A stretch of DNA of 64,000 nt from Phaeodactylum tricornutum CCAP 1055/1 (lineage: Eukaryota; Bacillariophyta; Bacillariophyceae; Surirellales; Neidiaceae), in contig NC_011690.1 in assembly GCF_000150955.2 (NCBI RefSeq), positions 452,579 to 516,578 of the forward strand. The letters run 5' to 3'. The notes below the pieces were generated by a model, which saw only the letters and a program-made list of their open reading frames with translations, was not told the origin of the DNA and ran no database searches. Position 1 is the stretch's first letter; the number at the start of each line of letters is the position of its first letter. This document shows positions 1 to 50,712 of the stretch, piece after piece. The translations under genes and the position numbers were made by a program.

Positions 1-3000
1 CTACCGCTGCCGCCCTCTCGACCGGCAAAAATTCCACAAACAGTACCTCCAAAGACTTGTGTCAGTCTGTGAAGGTGACTGCTGTGGAATCTTTGGAGAA
101 ATGTTTATTGGAGCACTCTTCCGACGAACCGACCCTGACGGACGATGCCAACGACAGTGATCAGCTGACTCGTCGCCACGAATCGGCAGTTGCCATTCTT
201 CGGGGCCTTCTACCTTCCATGATAATGAAGGATGTGCTGCCCAAAGGCGAACAGGGAAAATTTGCCGCTGCTGCGATCGCTTCGGATACGCTCGAGGGTT
301 TTTTGGAGCGCATCGTGGAAGATATCTCGGTACATCCGCATCGTTGGCCGGCAAGAATGTCTGCAGATTACCGAGCAGCAACTCGTTCTGAAACCCGCAC
401 AACACCATCCAACTCAGCCAAAGATTGCTCACTTATGAACACACCTACTACAGCTCGGCGTTCTCTGGGAGAAAGTAACGGAGGTGAAAGGAGCAATCGG
501 CGTTCCAGTCATGGATTGACTCCCCCTAGACTCAAGACACCCGCCGCGGCGGCTCAGAATCATCGAGGAATCTGTACTAGCAGCAATGGACGCCCTCGAC
601 CCGTAATCAGCGCAATCCTTGGTATTCTTCAACGCCTCGCCACGGATAAAGGTTTGGACAAAGCGTCGTCTCGTACCGTCGCCACCGATATCTTGTATCG
701 CTGCGTACGCCACTTGCCGCATCTGGAACGTGCCCACTTTCTAAAGTTTCTCATCCGGTGCTGCTATTCCAAAATTTCGGCCCATCGACTGGTAGCTTGC
801 GAAGTTATTGGTCAAGCACTATCAGAGACTTGGTTATGGAGCGATCACGTCACCACAGAGTTCCAGATCTCTTCGGATCCTACCACTCCCAATTCCGTCC
901 GACGTCAATCCCTCTCGCCTCTCGTGACGCAATCTTCCGCCGATATGCCTGCTGCCTTGTTAGCCGCATTGCAGGGACGTCTGATGGATCGAGTTCCGGC
1001 TATTCGTACGGTGGCAGCCCAATCTTTTACATTGAACTTTCGAAAGGTTAGCGCTGAGCATGAAACCCCCTCAACCGGTGCTCGCGGCGTTTCTATTTCG
1101 GCAATGGGATTGGCCCAGTCCTTCGCCGACGAGGCTTACACAATTGCGAACAGTCTGCGTCAACGTGCAGCATGTGACGAAAAGGCCACCGTTCGCCGTG
1201 CAGCCGTCGGGGCTTTGGTCGAGCTTTTAATCATGAGCAATCATTTCCCGGATTTTTCCTGTTTACTGCATGCAGAAGACATTGATATCCTCAGAGAATT
1301 ATGCCGGGATTCTTCGATGCTGACACGGAAATCTTCCAGTGAAGCCTTGACGCGTTTACTAGAGCACTGTCTCTCGGCTGAAGCATCCACGAGTTTGAAA
1401 AGTACGTCGATTGTAATCGATCTAGAACAAGCATGGGTATCGTCCGTCTTGACGATGGTGCTCGACTCGGAGCAAGGCTGTATCGGTAAGGCTATGGAAC
1501 TTGTTGATCGTGTATTATTCTGTCCTATCATGAGGTCAAGCGACGACGATGCTGAGTCAGAATCTCTTGTTTCCGTGTGGCGAATGTTGGCGGCAATTGG
1601 GGCTGGCCCGGGCAAACAAGGTGCATCCCGTAGTGAGATTGAGGCACTGCGCGTGGCTCTTGCAAAGACGATCGAAGGTGCTCCCTCACGGCCGAAAATG
1701 CTCGAATCGTTGTTGCGCAAAATTCATTCCGTAGCTGTCTCTACTCTCGACGAAACCCAGCACCAACATGACTTGATCGGTAATGCGATCGATTCCCGCC
1801 GTGCTGGTGTCTGGTCTCTTTTCGAAGCACTAATGGGCTACTCCAAGGATTTGTCCGAGATTTCACAAATGGTCAAATCCAGCAACTTAGATCTGGATTT
1901 TTTGGGCACATCTTGGAAGAGGATGTTGGAGTGGACTAGGTCCAAAGATCTTTCTAAGGAATCAGCTGCTCTCCTTCTAGGATGCATGCGCAAGTGCCTG
2001 CGCATCTTGTCCAAGCTCGCAACCTCTATTGACCGTGCATTGGTGCGACGCACGGCCGAGAATCTTCAAGAGCTGCTTATTACCTTCTCCTTGCCTCCAG
2101 AAATTGTTGGCTCGGCGATTACTGCGCTTGCAGCGACCACGATCTCGGCAAACCCCGAATCCAGCGATAAGGAGCACCGCAAAAGGTGTGCGAACTGGAT
2201 ACATTCAGTCTTTGAAGCATGTGAACAAGAAATCGCCGCGTGCGTCAATGAAACCAGCACAGTCACAGCGCCAGCTAAACTGACCAGGATTCTATTTACA
2301 CTTGGTGAGGTCTCAATGATCGGCTTTCATGCGAGCGGTGACGAAGGCTCGTCTGAAATGCTGAGTAGTGGCGAACGACAGGATAGCACCGAAGTATCAG
2401 TACTTAGGGGTTTGAAGGAGCGCCCCAACTCCAAGCTAGTTCAGCTTCTTCACGCTTTTCTTCCTGAGCGATTACCTGGCTTTTCTGGCGAGAGAACTCC
2501 CGAGGAGCTTCGTGCACATGCATTTACAGCTCTCGGTAAACTCTGTCTCCGGGACGACAAACTCGCCAAGACTTCCTTGAACATTCTCGCAAGAGAGCTA
2601 TACGAGAATATGAATAACGGTAGCCCGTCAGTCCAGAACAACGCATTACTCGTCTTGGGAGATCTCTGCGTAAAATATACGAATATGGTAGACCGCTTCC
2701 TCCCGGTCATGGCAGCATGTATGCAATCTGGGGTTACAGATCTCGCAACAAACGTTTTAGGTTCTTCTTTGTCCTCTTCAGCAATGGTTCGAAAGAATGC
2801 GGTCCTCCTTTTGTCGAGCCTAATCCTCCAGGACTACATAAAGTGGCGCGGCCTTTTGTTCCATAGATTCCTGGTCGCTTCCGCTGACGAAGACGAAGAG
2901 GTTGCCAATTTGTCTGAAATGATCGTCTGCGGTCCTTTGATTACGAAGCAACCTAAGCTGTTTTTCAATCATTTTGTTGAATCTATATTTGTTCTGAATC

Positions 3001-3689
3001 GATGCACAGCCCACCCCATATATGTTGCCGCGGCAACAATGGGTGACTCAGGCTCTGGGATTGCAGTCGGGTTTGAAGGAATCAGCCTTTCTGGAGAAGT
3101 CGGTCGCATTCGTCGTCATAAGATGTACGAGATGATGCTAGCAAAGCTGACTGACGAAGATAAAATCGGTGTCACGGCTCGTATCGCCAAAGATGTTTTG
3201 GGTAGTGCCCTGCAAAGCGGCAGTGACTTACACTGCGCATGTGCTCTAGACATTCCTTCTTCTAGAAGCACAGGACAAGAAAGTGCTTTCAATGTCTTGA
3301 GCGACGCCTTGGTGGTTCTCTCGAGCCCTATGATTCGCGTCGGTAAGACAGCCAAGGAAGACGACGACATTGAAGACCCGAACGTTCCAAATGCGTCTCG
3401 TCGTGTACTAGTCGCCAAGGGCAAATTGTTGTCCAAGATTAGTCGCAAGCATTTGATCGAAATCATTCTCCCCATTCTTTGCAATCTCAAAAGCATTCTG
3501 CAGAAGAACTGTTCACGTTTGCTCAAAGATTTGATGGCCTTCTTGGTAGATGTCTTCCGCCGCTACAACACTGAAGTCAAAGAGTTTCTTGCTAGCGATC
3601 CCGATTTGCTACAAGAAATCGAGTACGATGCCAAACAATTCCAAAAGAAAAATCAATCGGAAACACCTCGTAATGTCGCCTCGAAGTGA
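1..3689 (+). CDS. NCAPD3: Condensin II complex subunit D3 (CAP-D3), 5' end missing
   Basis: This is a HEAT-repeat, non-SMC subunit of condensin II, which compacts mitotic chromosomes. The frame is open from the window edge to the stop at 3687-3689 (about 1228 codons visible) and has no ATG at its left end, so the gene starts upstream. The diagnostic part is the C-terminal Cnd1-type block around 2500-3000: GKLCLRDDKLAK, LGDLCVKYTNMVDRF, and DYIKWRGLLFHRF match the CAP-D3 pattern (KLCL..LAKK, LCVRYT.MVDRY, FVKWRG.LFFRF) better than CAP-D2. Further on, RRHKMYEMMLAKLTDEDK matches the CAP-D3 region after the Cnd1 domain. No intron is needed in the visible part. The gene is convergent with the ferrochelatase gene, whose stop lies 111 bp away. 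Assignment to D3 is from recalled family sequence. Confidence 0.9.
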   Translation, partial: TAAALSTGKNSTNSTSKDLCQSVKVTAVESLEKCLLEHSSDEPTLTDDANDSDQLTRRHESAVAILRGLLPSMIMKDVLPKGEQGKFAAAAIASDTLEGFLERIVEDISVHPHRWPARMSADYRAATRSETRTTPSNSAKDCSLMNTPTTARRSLGESNGGERSNRRSSHGLTPPRLKTPAAAAQNHRGICTSSNGRPRPVISAILGILQRLATDKGLDKASSRTVATDILYRCVRHLPHLERAHFLKFLIRCCYSKISAHRLVACEVIGQALSETWLWSDHVTTEFQISSDPTTPNSVRRQSLSPLVTQSSADMPAALLAALQGRLMDRVPAIRTVAAQSFTLNFRKVSAEHETPSTGARGVSISAMGLAQSFADEAYTIANSLRQRAACDEKATVRRAAVGALVELLIMSNHFPDFSCLLHAEDIDILRELCRDSSMLTRKSSSEALTRLLEHCLSAEASTSLKSTSIVIDLEQAWVSSVLTMVLDSEQGCIGKAMELVDRVLFCPIMRSSDDDAESESLVSVWRMLAAIGAGPGKQGASRSEIEALRVALAKTIEGAPSRPKMLESLLRKIHSVAVSTLDETQHQHDLIGNAIDSRRAGVWSLFEALMGYSKDLSEISQMVKSSNLDLDFLGTSWKRMLEWTRSKDLSKESAALLLGCMRKCLRILSKLATSIDRALVRRTAENLQELLITFSLPPEIVGSAITALAATTISANPESSDKEHRKRCANWIHSVFEACEQEIAACVNETSTVTAPAKLTRILFTLGEVSMIGFHASGDEGSSEMLSSGERQDSTEVSVLRGLKERPNSKLVQLLHAFLPERLPGFSGERTPEELRAHAFTALGKLCLRDDKLAKTSLNILARELYENMNNGSPSVQNNALLVLGDLCVKYTNMVDRFLPVMAACMQSGVTDLATNVLGSSLSSSAMVRKNAVLLLSSLILQDYIKWRGLLFHRFLVASADEDEEVANLSEMIVCGPLITKQPKLFFNHFVESIFVLNRCTAHPIYVAAATMGDSGSGIAVGFEGISLSGEVGRIRRHKMYEMMLAKLTDEDKIGVTARIAKDVLGSALQSGSDLHCACALDIPSSRSTGQESAFNVLSDALVVLSSPMIRVGKTAKEDDDIEDPNVPNASRRVLVAKGKLLSKISRKHLIEIILPILCNLKSILQKNCSRLLKDLMAFLVDVFRRYNTEVKEFLASDPDLLQEIEYDAKQFQKKNQSETPRNVASK

Positions 3690-11461: not shown

Positions 11462-12757
11462 ATGCAAAAGACGATGAAACCATCTCCGGTCCCGTTAGTG
11501 GGGAAAAGCACGGCTGCCAAAGGTCCAGGTCCGCTACCAAGTCGCAAGCGAAACCGTAGCAACCGGCAGCCGATAAGAGCAGCACTTCCTCATACAAAGA
11601 CCGTAGAACAGCCGAACAAGAATTTTCGTCCATCTCAACGTGCTCAATCACAAAAGGGAACCTCCGGAAAACGGGCTCATGGTCCCAAGATCTTGGTACC
11701 CGATGACAGTCCGATAGTGGACGCACCCGCTCTCCCCGTCAAAGACGATCCGTGTCACCATTCCCAATCAGACCGGAAGCGGTATCAGAAACTCGCACGG
11801 CGCGTACCACGTGATGCAGCCGTGCAAGACAAAGCCGTTCGAAAAGCGGCGCGAAAACCTCTTTACAAGGCGGGGTTAGCCAAAGCTCGATCGAACGCAA
11901 ACGAACGTCGGGCACGAAGTGCGCGAGCGCCACAACCGGAGCAGTGGATCCCAAACTCGGTGACTCTACTACAGGCGGAACCAGTGTCGTCCAAACGGGT
12001 CTTGCAGTGGCCCTGTCTTCCGCCCGTTCCGCTTTCGGTGGAACAAGATGCTCTGACCGTGTTGATGCAACGGGGTCGTCGTGAACGAGGCATGGCCAAA
12101 GATCTTCCCGCTCTTCGTCTAGAAAATATTCAACGCTGCTGTCACCATTCGGGACATCTCCAACTTCCCCAAGCCTTGTCGTTGCGCCGGCATCACATTC
12201 AAAAACTGAATCGCGTCAACATCAAAGAGGTGGGACTGGGTACGGAAGGTCAAGTCCGCGATGCGGCCGAATGTTTCGAACAGGCTGTGGAAGATTGCTT
12301 GCGCAAACTAAATGTTCCCGTGTGGACCGAAGCTCAGCAAAAGGCACACTTTATTCAACAACCAGATCTGACCAGGCAGCCACCAACACCCGACTTTATC
12401 CTACGCGAGCAAATGCTGTTGAAGAAAACTTCTGGCCACCCCACTGACGGACGCATCGTCGAAGAACGGGTGATACATTGGATTGAAGTCAAAATGTTTT
12501 ACGGAGCGTCAACAATACCCAACGACGACAATCGGAGTGCCGTGGGTAACCTCCGCCGGACAGCCCGCAAGTATTACAAAACATATGGCCCTGGTGTCAT
12601 TGTCTTTATGTACGGTTGCGGGGAGAAGCTGGCATCAATGCTGGCAGGGGAAGGGGTTGGTGTGGTGGATTGTTGCGGGGACATGGTGGATTTGGAACGC
12701 GTCTACACACAACAACGGACCTGGTGTGCCAATCGAAACGGCACCATTTTACCGTAA
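11462..12757 (+). CDS. CDIN1-like nuclease (TPD domain, PD-(D/E)XK fold), copy A
   Basis: The C-terminal ~250 residues match the family of human C15orf41/CDIN1, the codanin-1-interacting nuclease: PPTPDFILRE, VIHWIEVKMFYGA, YYKTYGPGVIVFMYG, and a closing GVGVVDC segment parallel TPDFIL, IIHWIESKASFGD and FGPGLVIYWYG. The Asp of TPD and the E-x-K of IEVK are the expected metal-site residues of the PD-(D/E)XK fold. The N-terminal ~150 residues are highly basic and Pro/Gln-rich with no recognised domain, suggesting nuclear location or nucleic-acid binding. The first ATG in frame is at 11462; the frame is open slightly upstream but lacks ATG. Protein length is 431. A second, clearly paralogous copy is at 32953-34134. 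The gene's 3' end is duplicated at 14609. Confidence 0.8.
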   Translation: MQKTMKPSPVPLVGKSTAAKGPGPLPSRKRNRSNRQPIRAALPHTKTVEQPNKNFRPSQRAQSQKGTSGKRAHGPKILVPDDSPIVDAPALPVKDDPCHHSQSDRKRYQKLARRVPRDAAVQDKAVRKAARKPLYKAGLAKARSNANERRARSARAPQPEQWIPNSVTLLQAEPVSSKRVLQWPCLPPVPLSVEQDALTVLMQRGRRERGMAKDLPALRLENIQRCCHHSGHLQLPQALSLRRHHIQKLNRVNIKEVGLGTEGQVRDAAECFEQAVEDCLRKLNVPVWTEAQQKAHFIQQPDLTRQPPTPDFILREQMLLKKTSGHPTDGRIVEERVIHWIEVKMFYGASTIPNDDNRSAVGNLRRTARKYYKTYGPGVIVFMYGCGEKLASMLAGEGVGVVDCCGDMVDLERVYTQQRTWCANRNGTILP

Positions 12758-13148
12758 TCCTCGAAAATAGTTAGACTGATATTGTGTTTGGATATTGTGA
12801 ATTATCTACGTCGCAATGCAAAACTCATGCCTATGGCTTTTACTGCGTGTCAACTTACTTTGGAGGCGATTGCCAATGGAAAACACTGTAAACGTTCTCT
12901 CTAGGCACCACAGTAGCGAGCGAGCTACCATTAATAATAATCATTACAATTAGTCCGGGGAACACCGAACGTCAAAGGTACGAGTCATCGAAACCACGGA
13001 ACCTTTCCTCGAGAGCTAAAACTTCTGGCCGTCGTTCAAGAATCCCAACGCACTGTCACAGTCAAGACATCCACATTCTTTCACATCTGCCCATGACTGC
13101 ATCTTTTTCCCCGTCTTCCGTCAAAAATTGAAGAGTCGCTCATCAACG
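12681..13148 (+). repeat. Direct duplication, copy 1
   Basis: This segment covers the last ~25 codons of the copy-A nuclease gene and its downstream DNA, and recurs at 14609-15066 in the same orientation. Shared stretches include the words around cctcgaaaatagttagactg, caatgcaaaactcatgccta, tacgagtcatcgaaaccacgga and the final cttccgtcaaaaa. Differences are scattered substitutions and small gaps, so the duplication is not brand-new. Confidence 0.9.
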
Positions 13149-13581
13149 TAACTGGAAGTTTGCATGGGAAATCCTGGGCAGAAAGGACTGGCCTGTTCTT
13201 CAAAGTTCTTAGCCCTTGGACACTGTCAGACCAATCAAAGCACCTGGATCTTCAAAATTACTTATGCAAGAGAGGGCGTCACTGGGCAGAACATTGTGCC
13301 TCACATCTCGTCTTCTGAAGTAAGATCGTTCGGTCGTTTTGCGCGAGATAATGCATTGGCAAATCAAATGTCACTTTTTGTTGCACTCCACGGTTCGTTA
13401 GAAAAGGTTCGATACGGTCTTCACTCGAGGCTACAAATCCAAGATATTTTTCAATTAGCTCAAACCACCCACCCGTACGGGCTTCCGTCTGGGATTGCAA
13501 CGAAAAACAAGGTAGCAAAAAAAAGGCGGAGAGGTTTTTGAAAAAATGGTAAAGCGACCAGAAATCGGGTGGCCAGCAAGA
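13149..13581. other. Gap between duplication copy 1 and the cysteine-rich gene
   Basis: No gene recognised. A frame at 13164-13541 exists but shows no domain and no codon bias I trust. An A-rich stretch lies at 13500-13520 just before the downstream gene. Confidence 0.35.
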
Positions 13582-14472
13582 ATGTGGGATGTAGTAGTGT
13601 TGTGTTGCACATTCATAGCAACGGCCGCACACGGGTACAAAGAATCATTGCCAATAGCTGACTGTGAAACAGAAGCTTGCTTGGAACCAGCGTGGCTGAA
13701 GTCCCGGACTTTGGACCGCAGCGTGATGATTAGGAAGGCGGTATTAGACATGGTCAGACTGACAGGGTTAAGGTACCACAAAATATGCACAAATCCGCTT
13801 ATGTGGGCAGTAGAGAGTTTCTGCGATGAGGGAACCATCGTGCCATCAGGGGCAATCGTAGCGCTGGGCTTTAAAACGTGCAGTACGGCCCAGACAGATC
13901 TTTGGAGAGGGGTTGAGAGATGTGTACCCGAACACAGCAGGAGACTAGCGTCTGACGTCACAGTAAGCGTCCTGGGGAAAACTACTTGTGCGACAGCAAG
14001 CTTGGAGAACAACGTAGGGAACTTCGAAGACCTGATATGCTCTAGCCTCATACCCGTAGGATCTAATTACAGAGAGGAATGCGAGCTAGAATATCGGCTA
14101 GGTAAGTTTACGATAGACTCGAAAGCCGCAGACTTCAACGCGAACAGGTGCTTTCCGGACCGCGGACACGCAACAAACGGACTTTGCAGGCGTGGATGTT
14201 CGCGCGGAGTGGAAGAGCTTAACGAAAATCATCCTAACGTGGATCAGACAACGGTTAACATAGGAGGAGGTGTATACGCTCTCGCACAGGCATGCGGGAA
14301 CGAATACTATGACCGATTTACCCACTTCTCATATCAGAGTAATGATAACCGAGCTCTGGCGAATAAAGTTCCCGATCCTGTCTTGCCCCGATGCCGGACA
14401 TGCAACGACTGTTTGGTAGACTGTTCCTTCAGTGACAGCTGTATAAGATTTGAATGCAACCATTTGTGCTGA
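13582..14472 (+). CDS. Secreted cysteine-rich protein of unknown function
   Basis: I do not recognise this family. From the ATG at 13582 the protein (296 residues; 308 if the in-frame ATG at 13546 is used) starts with a signal-like hydrophobic segment MWDVVVLCCTFIATAAHG. The rest holds about 20 cysteines, clustered at the C terminus (CRTCNDCLVDCSFSDSC, then FECNHLC at the very end), which suggests a disulfide-rich extracellular or vacuolar protein. There is no second membrane span. By hand count about half of its arginines are AGA/AGG and ATA is used freely, unlike neighbouring genes that prefer CGN, so its origin may differ. It sits between two direct copies of a ~460-bp segment. Single exon, TGA at 14470. 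Confidence 0.6.
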   Translation: MWDVVVLCCTFIATAAHGYKESLPIADCETEACLEPAWLKSRTLDRSVMIRKAVLDMVRLTGLRYHKICTNPLMWAVESFCDEGTIVPSGAIVALGFKTCSTAQTDLWRGVERCVPEHSRRLASDVTVSVLGKTTCATASLENNVGNFEDLICSSLIPVGSNYREECELEYRLGKFTIDSKAADFNANRCFPDRGHATNGLCRRGCSRGVEELNENHPNVDQTTVNIGGGVYALAQACGNEYYDRFTHFSYQSNDNRALANKVPDPVLPRCRTCNDCLVDCSFSDSCIRFECNHLC

Positions 14473-14608
14473 ACAAATGTAAGGCGTGGCGCAGAGTCGA
14501 GCACAGGAATAGCAGAAGAGTACCTTGAGACGTCTTGAAGTGTGCCGGGCAATGACAGGTACGGCCATTACAGCAAAAGCGACTAGACAACCAAATAGAA
14601 AACGTTCA
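14473..14608. other. Short gap between the cysteine-rich gene and duplication copy 2
   Basis: 136 bp with no feature recognised; it holds the 3' region of the cysteine-rich gene and the left junction of the second copy. Confidence 0.35.
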
Positions 14609-15066
14609 ACATGGTGAATTTGCAACGCGTCTACAACGGACCTGGTGTGCCAATCGAAACGGCACCATTTTACGGTAATCCTCGAAAATAGTTAGACTGA
14701 TATTGTGTTTGGATATTGTCAACTATTTACGTCGCAATGCAAAACTCATGCCTATGGCTTTTGCTGCGTGTCAATTCACTTTGATTGCGAATTGAAAACG
14801 CTATAAACGGTCTCTCTAGGCACTAGACTAGCGAGCCAGCTAATATGAAAATGTATGATTACTGTTAGTCCAGGGAACACTGGACGTCACAGGTACGAGT
14901 CATCGAAACCACGGATTCCTGGAGAGCTACGAATTCTGGCCGTCGATCGTGAGTCCCAACGCATTCTCACAATCAAGACATCCATATTCTTTCGCATCTG
15001 CCCATAATTGCACTCCGTATCGTTTCCCCCATCTTCCGTCAAAAAGTGAGGAAGTCGCTCATCACG
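14609..15066 (+). repeat. Direct duplication, copy 2, with 3' remnant of the nuclease gene
   Basis: This is homologous to 12681-13148. It begins acatggtgaatttgcaacgc, corresponding to acatggtggatttggaacgc in the nuclease gene, loses 6-7 bases in the run that follows, then matches through the former stop codon and ~370 bp of downstream DNA. The coding part is a dead fragment without its own start. The distance between copy starts is 1928 bp. It ends about 200 bp before the xanthine dehydrogenase ATG, so it now forms part of that gene's upstream region. Confidence 0.88.
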
Positions 15067-15266
15067 AGATACAACATACCGACGGTGACAACATACGTTA
15101 ACCTGGTTCATACATACAGAGTACTTCCTCCAAAGCTTCAACTGTGAGCCTTTTCTTCCGTATATTTTGTTGGTCTTTACATCTCTCTCGTTCCTTGACA
15201 GCGTTCTCTTGAAAAATAGAAACACCTGTGATTCCTGCGATTGCTCCTGGTCTTAATCCATTCGTC

Positions 15267-18200
15267 ATGGCGCCAAATCAAAGCAACTTGTTGCAGTACG
15301 AGAACGAGGACGTCGAAAAGCTTTCCTTGTTTGAAAAGAAAGGTATGGGCAATTTACTTCTGTTGATGGTACTGAGTATTTGTTGGCAAGGCCTTGTGTA
15401 GGTCACTTCCTCGTTATTTCTGACGCCTCCTGTTCTCTTCGTGTTTTCAGGCTACCGCACGACACCGGTTTTATTCGTGAATGGTGAGCGTGTGTCGGAA
15501 GCAAAAGCGACACTGGCTCGACCGAATCAAACGCTATTGTCGTTCTTGCGAGATGTTTTGAGACTGACTGGATCCAAATTGGGTTGTGCCGAGGGAGGAT
15601 GCGGAGCTTGTACCGTTATGCTTTCCAAAAAGAATGTGGATACTGGCAAGATAAAGTACGTTGTAGTGCAGGTGTTCGATGCTTGTGTCGCATCGTCGTG
15701 GCCTTGCCAATGAATAACTTGTATACTGACCCCAAAGGGTTGTTGTACTTGGACTCGTTCTCATATTGCGACAGACACTTTTCGGTCAATGCATGTCTCA
15801 TGCCCGTGTTGGCTGCCGACGGGTGCCACGTGACAACTGTGGAGGGGATTGGAACCGTCAAAAACGACAATTTGCACCCCGTGCAGAATGCCATGGTTGA
15901 TATGCACGGATCACAGTGTGGTTTCTGTACACCCGGAATAATTGTGTCGATCTATGCTCTCCTGGCCAACAATCCTACCACCGCATACCTCGAAGAACAT
16001 TTGGATGGCAATTTATGTCGTTGTACCGGTACGTTGGAGGTCGGTCGGTTGGTTGGAGAATTATTATTTTTGCCATCGAACGGTATTGATACAAGTTCCT
16101 TACCTCTTTGCTACCGATCTTTACCAATAGGATACCGCCCAATTTGGGACGCGGCGCGTTCCTTGTGCGACGACGGCGAAGAACTTGTCAAAGGTCCTTG
16201 CGGAACAGCGTGCCGCGAATGCCCGGAACGCGAGGCTTGCGATCAAGACTGCAACGTCCAAGACAAGGCGACGTCCGCCGACAACATGTGCTGCTCATCG
16301 TCCAAGGATAAAATGAGTACTTACAAGGAGACTTTCCTAACAAACAAGGATTCTTGGAGAGCGCAACCGAATGTTATGTTTCCCAAGGTATTGATGGACA
16401 CAGCCTCGGTCGAAAGTACCCTCTTAACGAAACCACTCATGATTGTGGACCGTTCTGAATATCACACTGGAGGCACCTGGTTTAAACCTACGACTTTTGC
16501 TGGACTTTTGGCACTTTTGCAGGAGTTTGGCGGTACTGGGACAGGAGCTTGCAAAATTGTGGTTGGAAATACGGAAGTCGGCATTGAAACAAGGTTCAAA
16601 TACGCGGTCTACCCTCGCTTGATTAGCCCATCGGAGTCTATCAGGGAGTTGTTTGGCTTTGAAGTCTCCGGTGCTAATCTGATAATTGGCTCGTGCTGTC
16701 CCTTGAGCACGATTCAGCATCATTGCAATGCACTCGGCGAGCAAGATCTCCTCGTCCGCACCGTCATGCCCATACACGATATGCTTCGCTGGTTTGCTTC
16801 GACTCAGATTCGTAACGTGGCATGTTTGGGTGGAAATCTTGTGACAGCGAGTCCGATCTCGGACATGAATCCGATGTTGGCTAGCATGGGAGCCAAACTG
16901 GTCATTGCCTCTTTGGACGCAACGGACAAAACGACGATTTGCCGTCGTTATGTCGACGTGTCGGACTTTTTTGTCAAGTATCGTACGGTCGATCTCAAGC
17001 CCACGGAAATTTTGGAACGCATCGAAGTTCCTGTTCTTCGGAACCCGTTCGAATACCTCAAGCCTTTTAAGCAAGCCCGCCGTCGTGAGGACGATATAAG
17101 TATCGTGACTTCGGGCATGCGCCTAAAACTCACAGTTGTGGATCACGAATATATCATTGAAGAAGCATCTCTGGCTTTTGGAGGTATGGCTCCGACTACC
17201 GTTCTGGCGACCGAAACTGTCAAGATCTTGATTGGATCCGCATTTTGTGCTAAATCTTTCGAAAGCGCGACGGAAGCCCTCCTCCAGGAGTTGAGTTTAC
17301 CCGAAGCCGTTCCAGGAGGTCAAGCAGCGTTCCGAATGACACTTGCTACATCGTTCTTGTACAAGTTCTTTCTCTCTGTTGTGGCTGATCTCAAGGCAGA
17401 CATATCCGCTATACGAGCAAACCCATCGGCTTACCCCGGAATGGAAGTAGATCTTCCCGACCCTCCTTCAGTTGATACAATGGAAGAAAGCGGAACGGTG
17501 AACTTCTTGAGCGCAAAGAAACCGAATTATTCGGGAGTGCAAGTTTATCCCGCTGCTAAGGTGGCCAGCGGCCTAGAAGACAAGCTTTATCCTGCTGTTA
17601 AAAGCGCACGTGCAGCGGCAGAGACCACTGTTGTTGGAAAGGCTTCGGCCCACCAATCTGGTCCTTTGCACTGCACTGGAGAAGCAGCGTACTGCGACGA
17701 CATCCCAATGCCTGCTGGAACGCTGCAGGCATGTTTGGTGTTGGCAAGGGAGTGTGGGGGAGTGTTTGAAGCCATGGATGTTGCAGAAGCTTTAGCTATT
17801 CCTGGAGTTATAGGTATTTACAACTACGATAGTCTCGTCGGGCTTGGTGGTAGCAATGAGCTAGGACCTATCATTCATGACGAGACGGTCTTTCTTCGTC
17901 CCGGTGACATTGTTCGAACGGTTGGGCAAGTGCTTGGAATCGCGGTGGCGGAGACTTTGGAAGCAGCCGAGTTCGCCGCGCGTACTGTACATGTGACTTG
18001 TAGTCAGCCGAAAGAAAAAGTTGTTGTTACGGTTGAAGATGCTATTGAAACCGGGAGTTTTTACGAATTTTCCCGTCATAGTATGGAACGCGGTGACATT
18101 GCAATAATCGACAGCCTTGCGACGATCGCCGACTCGACGGGCACACCTTCTTTAGGAGATGTTGTAAAGATTTCGGGAACATTCCGATCCGGAGCTCAAG

Positions 18201-20282
18201 AACACTTTTATCTCGAGACTAATGCGGCATTGGTAATTCCTTCCGAGTCGGATACAAACTTGACGATATACGCCTCAACGCAAGCGCCTACCGAAACGCA
18301 AGCTTATTGTGCCTCAGCGACGGGGACGCCAGCTTCGAAGGTTGTTGTCCGTATGAAACGAATGGGTGGGGGTTTCGGGGGGAAAGAAACTCGCAGCGTT
18401 TTTGCTGCTTGCGCGGCGGCTGTGGCTGCCAAATGCGCGAGCCGACCCATTCGCCTTACTTTATCGCGTGACGTCGATATGAAGATCACGGGTACACGCC
18501 ATGTCTTTCTTTCCAAGTACCATGCTAGCGCCCAGATCACTGAAAACGGCGCTAAACTGGTAGCCTTTGACGTCAAATTGTTTGCGAATGGCGGTAGTAG
18601 CTTTGATTTGTCCGGTATGTCCCCTACCTACACACAAAATCCAAATTTCAAAATTGACGTTGTTGTGCTAATGTCGTTTGCCTCTTTTGTGGACGTAGGA
18701 CCCGTGGTCGATAGAGCACTGTTTCATGTGGATGGTGTCTACATGTTTCCGAGCTTTCGTGCGGAAGGTGTGCCTTGCAAAACCGTGCAGGCCCCTCATA
18801 CTGCGTTCCGTGGCTTTGGAGGTCCCCAAGGAATGGCTGTTGTTGAGCACGTAATGGACCACTTGGCACTCGCCACCAATGTTGATGCTGATAAGTTGCG
18901 TCGCATGAATATGTATAACGATGGTGAAGCCACCCCATTCGGTATGATTGTGGGTGGACATCATAGTGGGAACTGGAATGTTCCCGTCATGTGGGATCGT
19001 TTGGTACAAGAACTTGACGTTCCTCACCGTCGAGAGCGTATTGCCCAGTTCAACGCCAAACACAAATGGTTGAAGCGAGGCTTGTGTCTCATTCCGACCC
19101 GGTTTGGTATTGCGTTCACAACAAAGTTTATGAACCAAGGTGGTGCATTGGTACATTTGTATGTCGACGGAACGGTGCTAGTGACGCATGGAGGGACGGA
19201 GATGGGCCAAGGCCTTCACACGAAGGTTTGTCAGGTCGCCGCACAATCATTTGGTATTCCTCTGAACGACGTCTATGTAAATGATACGAGTACGGATAAA
19301 GTTGCCAACAGCCTACCGACTGCTGCGAGCATGTCTACGGACACGTACGGAATGGCTACGCTGGATGCTTGTCGTCAGATATTGAAACGGCTGGAGCCAT
19401 TTCGAGAAAAACTTGGCGCCGATGCTCCGTTGAAAGATGTAGCCCATGCTGCGTTTTTTGCCCGCGTCGACTTGACCGCGCACGGTTTCTTTACCGTCGA
19501 CGACAAGCGTTGTGGTTTCGACTGGAAGAAGGAGAGACCGGAGGGGTTTCCCGACGACAAGCCGGCCAACTCCTGGAGAGGGAATCCGTTCAACTATTTT
19601 ACGCAAGGAGTTGTTTGTACGGAAGTGGAAATTGACGTGTTGAGTGGGAACCACCGCACTTTGCAATCCGATTTACTCGTTGATGTTGGTGCGAGTATCA
19701 ATCCGGCAATTGACATTGGACAGATTGAGGGTGCATTTGTCCAGGGCATGGGTTGGAGTACAATCGAGGAAGTGACGTACGCTGACGACGATCATACCTG
19801 GATCCGTCCTCGTGGCTCATTGTTTACCTCTGGACCAGGCACGTACAAGATACCAGCGTTTAACGACGTTCCCGAGACTTTTAACGTGAGTTTGATGGAC
19901 AATGTGGATAATCCGTTTGCGGTACACAGTAGCAAGGCCATTGGCGAGCCTCCTTTCTTTTTGGGAGCATCGGTAAGTATACACACGATATCTATGTTCT
20001 GGACGATAGCCAAGTGGTGGGTAGTGTATTTGGTTCCACTGGATGACAGAAAGTCTCACGATTCCACTTTTTATGTGGTAGGTATTTTACGCCATTAAGG
20101 ATGCGGTGACGGCCGCCCGTAGCCAGAACTTGGGCCAAACGTCGTACTTTGAGATGCGAATGCCAGCGACTAGTGAACGTATCCGTATGTACTGTGCCGA
20201 TCCACTGGCGAGTCAGGCAGTGTCGAGGATGCGTAGCCAAGAAAACTCCATTGAATCTTTCCAGCCGCAAGGGAGCTATTAA
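15267..20282 (+). CDS. XDH: Xanthine dehydrogenase (molybdenum/FAD/2Fe-2S)
   Basis: It oxidises hypoxanthine to xanthine and xanthine to urate. Exons by splice signals and phase: 15267-15342, 15451-15655, 15775-18614, 18699-19972, 20082-20282, giving 1531 residues. Visible domains: ferredoxin-type cluster C71, C76, C79; second 2Fe-2S cluster with C142, C145, C175, C177 (CGFCTP, CRCTG); FAD domain with [15 protein letters not shown]; molybdopterin domain with [27 protein letters not shown] and GGTEMGQG; and, at the end of exon 4, the base-catalyst motif [14 protein letters not shown] Cys-rich linker ([14 protein letters not shown]) precedes the FAD domain. Intron 3 (84 nt) is a stop-free multiple of three, but removing it restores [13 protein letters not shown], the family sequence. 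The enzyme acts in purine breakdown together with the bifunctional gene at 49.3-50.3 kb. NAD- versus O2-dependence cannot be told from the sequence. Confidence 0.96.
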
Positions 20283-32952: not shown

Positions 32953-34134
32953 TTACGGAAGAATGTCGCCATTTTTATTGGCACACCACGTACGCAGTTG
33001 AGCATAAACGAGCTCAAGGTCAACCATGCCTCCACTGCAGTCGAGTACAATGACGCCTTCCTTTGCCAGATCGGCTGCAAGACGGTCACCGCAACCGTAC
33101 ATGAAAAGCAGAGCGCCTGGTCCGTAAGCGGTGTTGTATTTCTTGGCGGTTTTCAGGAGTTTCCCTACGGCACTGCGATTGTCGTTTGGAATTGTGGAAG
33201 CTCCGTAGAACATTTTGACCTCTATCCAATGAATGACTAGCTCATCCACAATATGTCGGTTCGCACCCGAACCACTCGATTTCCGTAGAATCACTTTGTT
33301 TCGAAAAATGAAGTCTGGAGTTGGTGGGGATGGACCTCTTATATTGAGATTTTTGAAGTGAAGCCTCTGCTCCTTTTCCGTCCATATCGGAATGTTCAAT
33401 TTCCGCAAAGTCGATTCAACAGCTTCTTCAAAGCAATCAGCTGCAGCTTTTACGTCATTTTCTGTACCCAAACCTAATTTTTCAATATTTAAGTAATGCA
33501 TCTTTTGCATGTGTTGTCGGCGCAATGAGAGCGCTTGTGAGAGCTGCATTCCATTTCGTCGGCACATCCGCGTGACCTGCTGCAAACGAAAGCTCGGCTG
33601 ATCTTTCATCATTCCTCGTTCGCTTTTCCCCCAATGTATTAGTATCTTGACTGCATCTTCTTCAGCCTGAAGTGGGACTGGTGTCAAAGCACACCAATGT
33701 AAAATTTGTTGCGGAGGTGCGACTGAAGTCCGTAGCCCTAAGTTCATGACCTGGTCTAGCGACAAAAACACCTGATCAGATCCTGGGTTTGGAGCCTTTG
33801 GGGATTCCAAATTTTTGGATTCTTTGTCTCGCTGTAATTCCTTGAATGCATCCTTTCTAGCGCGTCTCTCTTTCCTTGCATCACCACTTGCTCGCGTCGC
33901 GACCAAGTCTCGAGATGGCTGTTGATGTACGCCATCGCTGGAAAGAAGCTGCTGACTAGTACCACCGTGGGTCTTGCCCCGTTTACGTTTCGGCAATTTC
34001 GGTCGACGTTTTGGGGCAGATGAATGCTGACTGTCTCGGAAAGAAGAAGAATTATTTCCCTTTGCCGCTGTGTGGCCAATAGACATGGTCTGTATTGGTG
34101 CCCTACTTGGCTGAGACGAACCATCAGCTTCCAT
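32953..34134 (-). CDS. CDIN1-like nuclease (TPD domain), copy B
   Basis: Paralogue of the gene at 11462-12757, on the opposite strand 20 kb away. The C-terminal ~260 residues align along their length: LHWCALTPVPLQAEEDAV, LSQALSLRRQHMQKMHYLN, RKLNIPIWTE, PPTPDFIFRN, VIHWIEVKMFYGASTIPN, YGPGALLFMYGCGDRL and the ending TWCANKNGDILP (copy A ends TWCANRNGTILP). Asp of TPD and the E-x-K of IEVK are kept, so both copies look catalytically intact. The N-terminal ~130 residues are basic and Ser-rich (SAPKRRPKLPKRKRGKTHGG, a likely nuclear signal) and do not resemble copy A. 393 residues from ATG 34134, single exon. The assigned family (human CDIN1) binds codanin-1; whether a partner exists here is unknown. 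Confidence 0.82.
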   Translation of the reverse strand: MEADGSSQPSRAPIQTMSIGHTAAKGNNSSSFRDSQHSSAPKRRPKLPKRKRGKTHGGTSQQLLSSDGVHQQPSRDLVATRASGDARKERRARKDAFKELQRDKESKNLESPKAPNPGSDQVFLSLDQVMNLGLRTSVAPPQQILHWCALTPVPLQAEEDAVKILIHWGKSERGMMKDQPSFRLQQVTRMCRRNGMQLSQALSLRRQHMQKMHYLNIEKLGLGTENDVKAAADCFEEAVESTLRKLNIPIWTEKEQRLHFKNLNIRGPSPPTPDFIFRNKVILRKSSGSGANRHIVDELVIHWIEVKMFYGASTIPNDNRSAVGKLLKTAKKYNTAYGPGALLFMYGCGDRLAADLAKEGVIVLDCSGGMVDLELVYAQLRTWCANKNGDILP

Positions 34135-44322: not shown

Positions 44323-44796
44323 GATGAAGACTCTAAGACAAAGAACACGACCACGGGTTTTGCCATTGTGAACCTCTCATTTTCGTCACCTTATTGTGCT
44401 TGCTCGAAGTGGATTTTGAGCTGCCTACAATTATGAAAGCATACCGATCGATAATATCTGCGACTACTTATTTCATGTCGTAATAGACTGTCTGAAGACT
44501 GAAATAGATAGCCAGCGTACTCTCATTTGCTGGATAGTCTCCCTAATATTGTTGTTTATTTTGTTATTTTGTAATAGTGCAATGAAATATCATTTGTGAA
44601 ACTTTTCGGTGGTTTTTTTGTGACTGCCTCGAAACCGCAGCGCCAATACTTTTCTTCTCTTGTCCATTAAGCTTCCAGGTGGCACAAAAATTAAATTTTC
44701 GTGAATTTGTGTGAAAAGAGACGAGTTGCCGACTCTGTGGACTCGACGGCCCATGTACTGTGTTAGTCACGTCTCCATACCGGGGTAGTTGCAAAA
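44323..44796. other. Divergent intergenic region
   Basis: 474 bp shared upstream region of GUF1 (-) and the plastid protein gene (+). AT-rich around 44530-44600. Nothing further recognised. Confidence 0.4.
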
Positions 44797-46388
44797 ATGT
44801 TTCTTTTGACAACTGCATGCTTCGTATGTGCAACAGCTGCTTTCCAATCGTCCTCGTCTCCCCGTAGGATACGAGGCAGATCTGCAATACTCCAATTTCC
44901 TCCTTCGCCATCGGCCCTGTATAGTAGCAGTAGCGATGGGACGGAAGATCAGTCGATCGAGGCTCTGCAGTCACTAGCAAAGTTTCACGAAGGTTCTTGG
45001 CAAGGTAGGGCCAAATCTTTTGCCGTAACAGCGGATGTGGCTGCTGGAATTGTTCAACGTAAGGACTCGCCCTCGTATCAGTGTTTCGTGAAGGTTGCGT
45101 TGGACGCCACTAACCGCGACTATCTGCTACAAGAGACTTTGGAATGGGAGGATAGTGTTTCATCTAGAAGCATATCTTTCAAGAATTCAAACGTTGATGT
45201 AGACGCTGTCGATGCGTCATACAGTTTGGACAGCACTTTGCCTGATTTTCCGAATGCACTTGCTGGCACCGACAAGCTCAAGCAGTTCCTTATTGAGCAT
45301 TGTGTGGCAGTTTCAGACGATGAACGCGCCCGTTGTTTGGTTTTCTATGGAGCCGACCAAAATTTAATTCGAATAGTTGTTTGCGAGGAAACACGGATTC
45401 CGACCGAAAACGAAGACGTTGTCATCGGTACAAGCGACAAAGACTCCAGCTTTTCTGCTGCTGATTTGCTTGAGATGCAGAGTGATGTAGATCGTTTGGT
45501 GGACAAAATGACTGGAGACTCAAAGGTAGGAAGCCAAGAGTCTGGCCACACTTCTGGCACTCCGCAAGAACAATTGAAAAAGCTACAAGACGTCGTCTCT
45601 ACGTCTGAATCGACGCCATCAGACGAAATTGATGGCACCGGATCGTCCTTTTCGAAACATTCAATTACCTTACTCGAGGTAAGCTCAGGTGTATGGTTAG
45701 GAGACTCGATCATTCGAGACGTTCCAATGGTGCCGATGTCAATGGAAGAACGCGGAAAAGGTTTTGGGCCGAAACAGATAGCCACCATCAGATCAAACAA
45801 CGCATTCGCCAAATGGTCTGTAGGGGTACAAAAGGTAGCCTGGCGATGGATGTGGAATTTTGGTGATGAAATTCGTCAAGTGAATGATATCGGGAAGTTT
45901 ATGGGAGCTCAACTCGAACCTACGCTTGCACAAAGCCTATCCGGAACGGTATGTATCAACGAAGGGCTCTCCCGAAAGATAAAACCAGACGATCGAATGG
46001 TGTACATTGATTGGAACGGCGAGAACGTGGGCTTTGTGCTGGGCTCTTATTCGGTACAAGTAAGTAGAATATGATTACACTGAGGCTTGCTGACATTTTG
46101 ATGCAAGGGCGAACTATAAACAGACTCATCCATCTCTTCTGTTTCTAGGTGCCACGGTATTTGAAGTTTGATAAGCGACAAGTCAGACCTTTCACCACTG
46201 AATTTACCGTATTTCAGAGCGCGCCCAAGCGCTCGAACGCAGAAGACGTTTCAAATGACGAGCCGGATCTGAAAGATATTATTTGCTCTAAAGTGTCTCG
46301 AGTTTACAACTACGAAGGACGCCTCAAGCAGGGGTGCACTTCTTTTTTCACTTTCAAGCGCTTCGGAACAGAGAAGCAGGATACATGA
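44797..46388 (+). CDS. Probable plastid protein of unknown function
   Basis: Exon 1 is 44797-46059, intron 89 nt (GTAAGT...TTCTAG), exon 2 46149-46388; 500 residues. It starts MFLLTTACFVCATAAFQSSSSPRR: a short signal peptide with the ATAAFQ cleavage motif, then a basic Ser-rich transit stretch. The mature part begins about residue 45 with an ALQSLAKFHEGSWQGRAKSF segment, in which the WxG pattern near a beta-barrel start suggests a lipocalin-like fold of the CpeS/DUF3598 type, though I am not sure. A Ser/Asp-rich linker follows, then a second conserved half (LLEVSSGVWLGDSIIRD, VAWRWMWNFGDEIRQV, then YIDWNGENVGFVLGSYSVQVPRYLKF across the splice) that looks like another beta-barrel unit. I do not know its role. 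Confidence 0.75.
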
Positions 46389-49273: not shown

Positions 49274-50271
49274 CTACGACCCGCGGTAGGTGGAAAAGCT
49301 CCACGGGCTTACCAGCAAAGGAACGTGATAATGATCGTCCGGATTGTCGATTCCGAAGCGCAGCGGAATTGTGTCCAGAAAGGGTTGTCCGGATGTGAAG
49401 GTTCCTTTCGAAGCAAAGTATTCCCCACAAAAAAAGGTCCATTCGTACTGGCCAACCGTAAATTCCTTACCACCCTTGAGGGCCGGGCCTCCTTCTAAAC
49501 GTCCGTCATCATTCGTCACAAATTCACCCACGAGACCTGCCATTTCCGGAGGCGACAAACGATGCAGATGAATACGCATCTTTTCGGCTAAAAGAAGCGA
49601 CAACCAGAAACGGTTAGTGACCACATGCTGGCGAGCACCGATACCTCGATTCGGTTCGCCGGGGTAGAGCCGTCGCACTACGTACCAGGACAACCGTTCC
49701 CCGTGTCCAACACGTGGCAAGTCAAAAAGCCCTGCGCGTCGCTAGTATCGATTTTAGACAACAGTCGCATCCAGGCAATCTTGTGCACCTGCTCAAGCGC
49801 CACCATAAATTCTTGCTCGGGAGTGTGCTGGACGCGTCCGCCCAAAGCGGCCAATACGGTATGTTTGGTGGCGTTACGGACGGCTAAAATAAAAGGAAAG
49901 CCGCACTGATCACGGTAGGCACCATTGAGAGAGTTGAAGCGCTCTAATTCTGCGTCCGTCAAAGACTGCAATCCCGATCGGGATTGTTCTTCTTGGCTCT
50001 CGACCGTCAACATTTCGAGTTTGCCTACTTTTTCGCACAAGTCCGGATGTGCACAAAGCAATTCCAGTTTTTGATCTTTAGAAGACTTGTTGACAATGGC
50101 TTTCATGGCAGCCGCCAGCTGGGAAATTGTCTCGATCGATGCGAGCGATTCCGCATCTTTTACCAAGGCTTCCGCAACCCATGCCGAGTGCTCGTAAATT
50201 CCTCCCAAAAACGAGGCAATTTCAGCCGATGGCTTAGACAAGAGATCTTTCACGGTTACAGGAGCGGACAT
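49274..50271 (-). CDS. Bifunctional OHCU decarboxylase / 5-hydroxyisourate hydrolase
   Basis: One protein carries the two steps after urate oxidase: hydrolysis of 5-hydroxyisourate and decarboxylation of OHCU to S-allantoin. Exons: 50271-49686 and 49587-49274 (98-nt intron, phase 1), 299 residues from the ATG MSAPVTVKDLL. OHCU decarboxylase part (1-170): FLGGIYEHSAWVAE with the catalytic His, CAHPDLCEK, LTVESQEEQSRSGL, FNSLNGAYRDQCGFPFI. Transthyretin-like HIU hydrolase part: FLTCHVLDTGNGCPA across the splice, MRIHLHRL, and the C-terminal signature STYRGS. Order and fusion match the plant allantoin synthase (TTL). It lacks a C-terminal SKL-type peroxisome signal and I see no clear internal PTS2. 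The ATG at 50271 fits the family length; upstream in-frame codons add an unlikely leader. Confidence 0.95.
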
Positions 50272-50712
50272 TACGTACACAGGGCTGGAAAACGTAAGAG
50301 CGAGATAAAAAATTCTGGAACGAATGGTGCCCACCTTCGTCAACGAATGAATTTGATTGATTTTGGTAGGCCAGGCCCGAATTGCAATCTTCAGAATCGA
50401 ACAACGGAGGTTTACTCCTACCGCTAACTTTACATTACATGCCAACGTACGAAGATACGAGCGAAGGACAAACCGTTGTTGACAAAATGTTATGTAACTG
50501 CAAAGTAACTGCTTTACTATACATCGAACGACCAGCGCCTAAAAATTAGCTGTCCCCTCTCTCGGGGACAGAAACAAGGTGCGTTCACCAATGCACTCGT
50601 TTCCTGACCAAAAACCTTACACAAGGCAAGGAAAGTAAACTAATTTACTCTAACGTGGCTACTGACTTGCTTGTCGTCCCGAAATCACCTACATGAATCA
50701 AGCGTGACCGCT
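50272..50712. other. Intergenic region
   Basis: 441 bp: promoter side of the allantoin-synthase gene and 3' side of the prolyl hydroxylase gene. Contains TAACTGCAAAGTAACTGC around 50494-50511. Confidence 0.4.

Follow-up and report, generated by a model that had tools for sequence, protein, structure and literature searches.

In a 64,000-nucleotide stretch of Phaeodactylum tricornutum CCAP 1055/1 (contig NC_011690.1, positions 452,579 to 516,578; GC content 50%, compared to 48.8% for the P. tricornutum reference in PMC8147415), hereafter the window, two direct copies of a segment of about 460 bp (R1 and R2) bracket 1463 bp of unrelated DNA that carries a long open frame, X, with unusual codons. 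R1 contains the 3' end of an intact CDIN1-like gene (gene a), and the corresponding coding piece in R2 has decayed. The arrangement lies between gene a and a xanthine dehydrogenase gene (XDH), and is tentatively attributed to a tandem duplication in which about 1.46 kb would have been copied or captured at the joint in a single event (probability roughly 0.4). The features on which this reading rests are as follows, with positions counted from the start of the window.

11462 to 12757, + strand: gene a, CDIN1-like, TPD family, 431 amino acids, intact (Pfam TPD PF14811, 39.9 bits against a cut-off of 27; translation)
12681 to 13145, + strand: R1, first repeat copy, comprising the 3' end of gene a and 388 bp further downstream (self-blastn, alignment)
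13146 to 14608, + strand: insert between R1 and R2, 1463 bp, with no match in the window at E < 0.05
13546 to 14472, + strand: open frame X, putative secreted protein of 308 amino acids (296 from the second methionine at 13582), 22 cysteines
14609 to 15064, + strand: R2, second repeat copy, with a dead CDIN1 3' end (7-bp deletion, three substitutions; self-blastn, alignment)
32953 to 34134, - strand: gene b, CDIN1-like, 393 amino acids, used to polarise changes in the coding part of R1 and R2 (Pfam TPD, 33.8 bits against a cut-off of 27)

The repeat pair and the decay of its second copy

Comparison of the whole window with itself by blastn (E ≤ 1e-5) listed two non-self matches. The stronger joined 12681-13145 to 14609-15064 in the same orientation, with 83.7% identity over 473 columns (E = 1.7e-143), and the other (12447-12758 against 33260-32952; E = 7e-28) corresponded to the coding likeness of the two CDIN1-like genes. 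When nearly the whole window was cut into 465-bp tiles (n = 137), non-self matches at the same threshold were likewise found only within R1/R2 or the two CDIN1-like genes. Taken together, these results indicate that the likeness of R1 and R2 is no chance find and that the segment is not a common dispersed repeat in the window. Direct homologous copies at 12681-13148 and 14609-15066 had been proposed in a first-pass annotation made by eye from the sequence; the self-comparison and the alignment of the copies found the extended identity that this proposal called for, and its end points were correct to about 3 bp.

R1 and R2 are thus direct copies with sharp edges, R1 continuing into gene a on the left and R2 running on toward XDH on the right. 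With gap columns removed, they were separated by 26 transitions and 26 transversions, together 52 mismatches over 448 aligned bases (Kimura two-parameter distance of 0.126), in addition to a handful of small gaps. Exact pieces of 45 and 32 bases common to both copies had no match in viral or prokaryote contigs, and an Rfam scan of 12400-15400 detected no RNA family.

R1 covers the final 24 codons of gene a together with its stop codon, and in R2 the same piece has lost 7 bp, which shifts its frame, and carries three substitutions. Gene b, which is 59% identical to gene a over 254 amino acids, served as outgroup: it sided with R1 at 3/3 coding substitutions and was without the 7-bp deletion of R2. 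Because both the substitutions and the loss polarise to the R2 side, R2 is, on this comparison, the decayed copy and R1 the maintained one, which bears out the earlier claim of a dead CDIN1-like coding piece in the second copy. Gene a and its paralogue gene b resemble the CDIN1/C15orf41 (TPD) family in that both score above the Pfam TPD cut-off, whereas R2 keeps just a dead 3' end; Pfam labels the family 'unknown function', and the CDIN1 name and a nuclease activity are what we presume for these TPD genes. Gene b lies about 20 kb from gene a in the opposite orientation, and its 3' flank showed no likeness to the repeat (best E = 0.39).

Divergence was uneven along the repeat. The 5' block (12681-12849, i.e. 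the coding end and the next 92 bp) had 7 mismatches in 162 positions compared to 45 in 286 for the remainder (Fisher p = 1.8e-4 for a boundary picked post hoc; p = 0.004 in a permutation scan over all boundaries). So low a count has a probability of 5e-6 if both copies drift at the rate of the remainder, and of 0.054 with one copy constrained and one free. One constrained and one free copy therefore account just about adequately for the 5' block, whose likeness may also owe something to gene conversion or to both copies being constrained (e.g. if both act as a 3' region). The folding of the conserved block was not significantly better than that of shuffled sequences (z = 0.69 in R1 and -1.29 in R2).

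The bracketed insert and its open frame

The best match of the insert to the rest of the window was 21 bp long (E = 0.078). Its frame X ends 136 bp before the start of R2. Among 2000 simulated inserts with the same dinucleotide frequencies, the longest ATG-initiated frame averaged 88 codons and reached at most 232, none being as long as X; X is therefore unlikely to be a chance frame, and may be an expressed gene. Its most hydrophobic 15-residue stretch spans residues 16-30 (hydropathy of 1.94, compared to a best value of 1.49 beyond residue 30), and 20 of its 22 cysteines lie after residue 30. The first-pass annotation had described a complete gene for a protein of about 296 residues with a signal peptide and about 20 cysteines: the frame, the length from the second methionine and the richness in cysteine agree with this description, and the completeness of the gene and the secretion of its product are plausible. 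An AlphaFold2 model from the single sequence was useless (mean predicted local distance difference test score of 31.8).

Relatives of X were sought in several collections. X had no match among phages or plasmids at E ≤ 1, none in the PDB up to E = 10 and none in NCBIfam, and its best Pfam hit had an E-value of 0.25. Short peptide patterns of X occurred in 2 stretches of viral contigs and 16 stretches of bacterial and archaeal genomes, none of which was confirmed by tblastn, in searches that reach close relatives only. A match to PHROG 4825 (E = 0.015 over 31 residues) was taken as chance. As these collections cover viruses, plasmids and prokaryotes together with curated families and solved structures, the lack of hits is little guide to what other algae contain. 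Within them, X appears to be an unexplained orphan with no convincing relative.

Codon usage was scored as z per slice of up to 924 bp, over X and 19 window frames (three short frames were dropped), and as mean log-likelihood and whole-frame values over X and 22 window frames; the frames are stop-to-stop or mechanical and may include non-coding stretches. With a z of -7.2, X was the lowest of 114 slices, the next being at -5.0. Compared to the window, X favoured AGA/AGG for arginine (52% vs 13%), ATA for isoleucine (67% vs 17%) and GTA for valine (50% vs 20%). This signal is consistent with imported or young DNA and proves neither.

Origin of the arrangement

From an ancestral order of gene a, the repeat segment and XDH, replication or repair would have run, in one old event, to the right end of the segment (13145), would next have taken up about 1.46 kb of DNA from another site by copying or capture, and would then have rejoined at the left end (12681) and continued into XDH, leaving R1, the insert and R2 in succession. 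The route would be similar to template switching, as in microhomology-mediated break-induced replication or fork stalling and template switching (MMBIR/FoSTeS), or to end-joining repair with fill-in. Since then R1, which supplies the 3' end of the intact gene a, would have been under constraint, and the coding piece of R2 would have been left to decay. The insert would have brought, or later turned into, a gene for a small cysteine-rich secreted protein, whose transcription may terminate within R2, the second copy of the 3' region of gene a.

Duplication with insertion was ranked first because it needs fewer steps than either of the two routes put forward in the first-pass annotation, namely tandem duplication with loss and insertion by recombination between repeats, both of which do fit the topology. 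The decay on the R2 side, the constraint on one copy over the 5' block, the lack of a CDIN1 relic in the insert (see below) and the codon deviance of X were counted in its favour. The ranking among duplication with insertion, duplication with loss and integration of a circle follows parsimony, no test being decisive. The type of rearrangement is ordinary and well documented in eukaryotes, and gene X itself is unexplained.

Patch-mediated break repair with fill-in was reportedly described by Vaughn and Bennetzen in 2014. According to PMC5730883 and PMC8355091, break repair with fill-in produces direct duplications when nearby nicks on opposite strands are filled in and joined, as would be the case here, but 460 bp is long for that route and 1.46 kb separates the copies at this locus. 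Templated insertions are ascribed to replicative repair at the junctions of chromosomal insertions (PMC5120786), and accompany tandem duplications and template switching (PMC7025897). The cycles of templated insertions of MMBIR/FoSTeS in the same two papers share with the present locus a host segment doubled directly with unrelated DNA between the copies; the locus differs in being old, diverged and algal rather than human, and in having neither significant junction microhomology nor a source locus. A literature search that was not aimed at the exact locus found no paper on the R1-X-R2 arrangement, which is no proof of its absence in print. PMC4588885, where xanthine dehydrogenase is mentioned solely for its cofactor, and PMC7335047, which deals with tandem duplicates of another diatom, had no bearing on the origin of the locus.

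Several observations weigh against duplication with insertion. A locus from which the insert could have been copied is not known, the insert having been compared at the DNA level with the window only, so that copying from elsewhere remains a proposal. The words at the junctions showed no significant microhomology or target duplication, the best being 5 bp long (TCAAC, with a chance of 0.12 to 0.42 depending on width). The fill-in duplications treated in PMC8355091 are presented there as insertions shorter than 100 bp, which makes 460 bp long for simple end filling, and the two papers cited for inserted templates concern human genomes. The codon signal, too, can be read in more than one way. 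Ordinary window frames, when sliced out of frame, give z values down to -8.0 (mean = -3.6, n = 122) and the two other reading frames of X give -7.7 and -6.1, so an untranslated frame could show a signal like that of X. When mean log-likelihood replaces z, at least six slices of the frame at 3-3686 score below X. Finally, duplication followed by later loss takes two events, yet it involves no coincidence.

That last route, in which a 1.9-kb unit of repeat and X was duplicated in tandem and the second X then deleted, X having long been present between gene a and XDH, is somewhat unlikely. It suits the topology, with 12681-14608 as a natural unit and the right edge of R2 as the deletion edge, and requires no outside DNA. 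One of its two events is, however, the loss of an X copy between R2 and XDH, and window-wide blastn and tblastn found no remnant of the insert or of X in 15065-15266, a spacer that was not aligned on its own; the codon usage of X is moreover unlike that of its neighbours. The single homologous crossover of a circular DNA carrying X and a repeat-like stretch would yield R1-X-R2 in one homology-driven event, and a diverged source for the repeat of the circle would explain why the copies differ. Such a crossover is nonetheless unlikely, as it requires a prior copy of the repeat joined to X elsewhere when neither a circle nor a locus of origin is known, and the 3' flank of gene b, the only other CDIN1-like gene seen, does not resemble the repeat. 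Tandem duplication of the whole CDIN1-like gene, with the second body deleted and replaced by X, appears more doubtful still. R2 does retain exactly the 3' end of the gene and the sequence downstream, and the dispersed paralogue gene b shows that the family duplicates, but nearly the whole body must have been replaced: six-frame translated local alignment of the insert gave scores of 37 with gene a and 47 with gene b, compared to means of 41.8 and 39.8 and maxima of 50 and 50 in 30 shuffles each, so that the insert never exceeded the maximum.

An assembly artefact, e.g. two alleles placed end to end, is very unlikely. The DNA may come from a diploid alga, and assemblies of such organisms can confuse haplotypes with duplications, resolved haplotypes being weighed against collapsed duplications in PMC8147415. 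However, 52 differences in 448 bases together with indels exceed what alleles would be expected to show, the coding piece of R2 is broken, and neither flanking gene is doubled at similar identity within the window. The least credible proposal makes X a mobile element, e.g. of the long terminal repeat (LTR) type with R1 and R2 as its terminal repeats. Direct repeats of LTR-like size do flank a frame with unusual codons, but R1 includes the 3' end of gene a, an intact host gene, with homology beginning inside the frame of that gene, and X has no element domain in Pfam. The insert has no terminal inverted repeats (best shared word of 4 bp, chance 0.37-0.89) and no significant target duplication, and the bases flanking R1 and R2 on the outside differ when compared by eye, so no short target duplication is present there either. 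An LTR retrotransposon or a terminal-repeat retrotransposon in miniature (TRIM) was rejected on the host-gene content of R1 and the absent target duplication, and a DNA transposon on the ends of the insert.

As to the source of the inserted DNA under duplication with insertion, it is improbable, though conceivable, that X derives from another lineage or from a rapidly evolving family of secreted proteins, and that the rearrangement turned it into a working gene in a single step by placing it between two copies of its neighbour's 3' region. If so, duplication with insertion could equip a captured frame with an existing 3' end, and new genes could then arise by a path other than capture by a transposon. 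The locus would be of interest mainly because it might allow the appearance of an orphan secreted gene beside a conserved metabolic gene to be dated: the divergence of the two repeat copies can serve as a clock, and a survey of sister species would tell whether X arrived with the duplication.

The xanthine dehydrogenase side and other features of the window

15065 to 15266, + strand: spacer between R2 and XDH, outside the repeat (the R2 alignment ends at 15064)
15267 to 20096, + strand: xanthine dehydrogenase gene (ATG and introns placed by eye; 3' end approximate)

The XDH assignment is supported by Pfam domains on 16274-20096 (FAD_binding_5, CO_deh_flav_C, Ald_Xan_dh_C, MoCoBD_1 and MoCoBD_2). 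As R2 ends at 15064 and the ATG of XDH is at 15267, the nearest 202 bp upstream of XDH lie outside the repeat. The earlier claim that the rearrangement had moved a new upstream region in front of XDH is not sustained, and a new XDH promoter of this kind was rejected. With a duplication unit ending at 15064, the boundary between R2 and XDH is the old junction and XDH keeps its old neighbour; a new junction arises only under duplication followed by loss.

Elsewhere in the window, the frame at 44767-46071 (+ strand) came second after X in codon-usage deviation among whole frames (z = -4.7). It had no Pfam match at E ≤ 0.001, and its start resembles what we take to be a diatom plastid-targeting sequence; along with the GC content and introns recognised by eye, this start points to a diatom. 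An OHCU decarboxylase domain, involved in urate breakdown, is located at 49681-50538 (- strand), about 30 kb from XDH, and the two purine-breakdown genes perhaps form a loose cluster.

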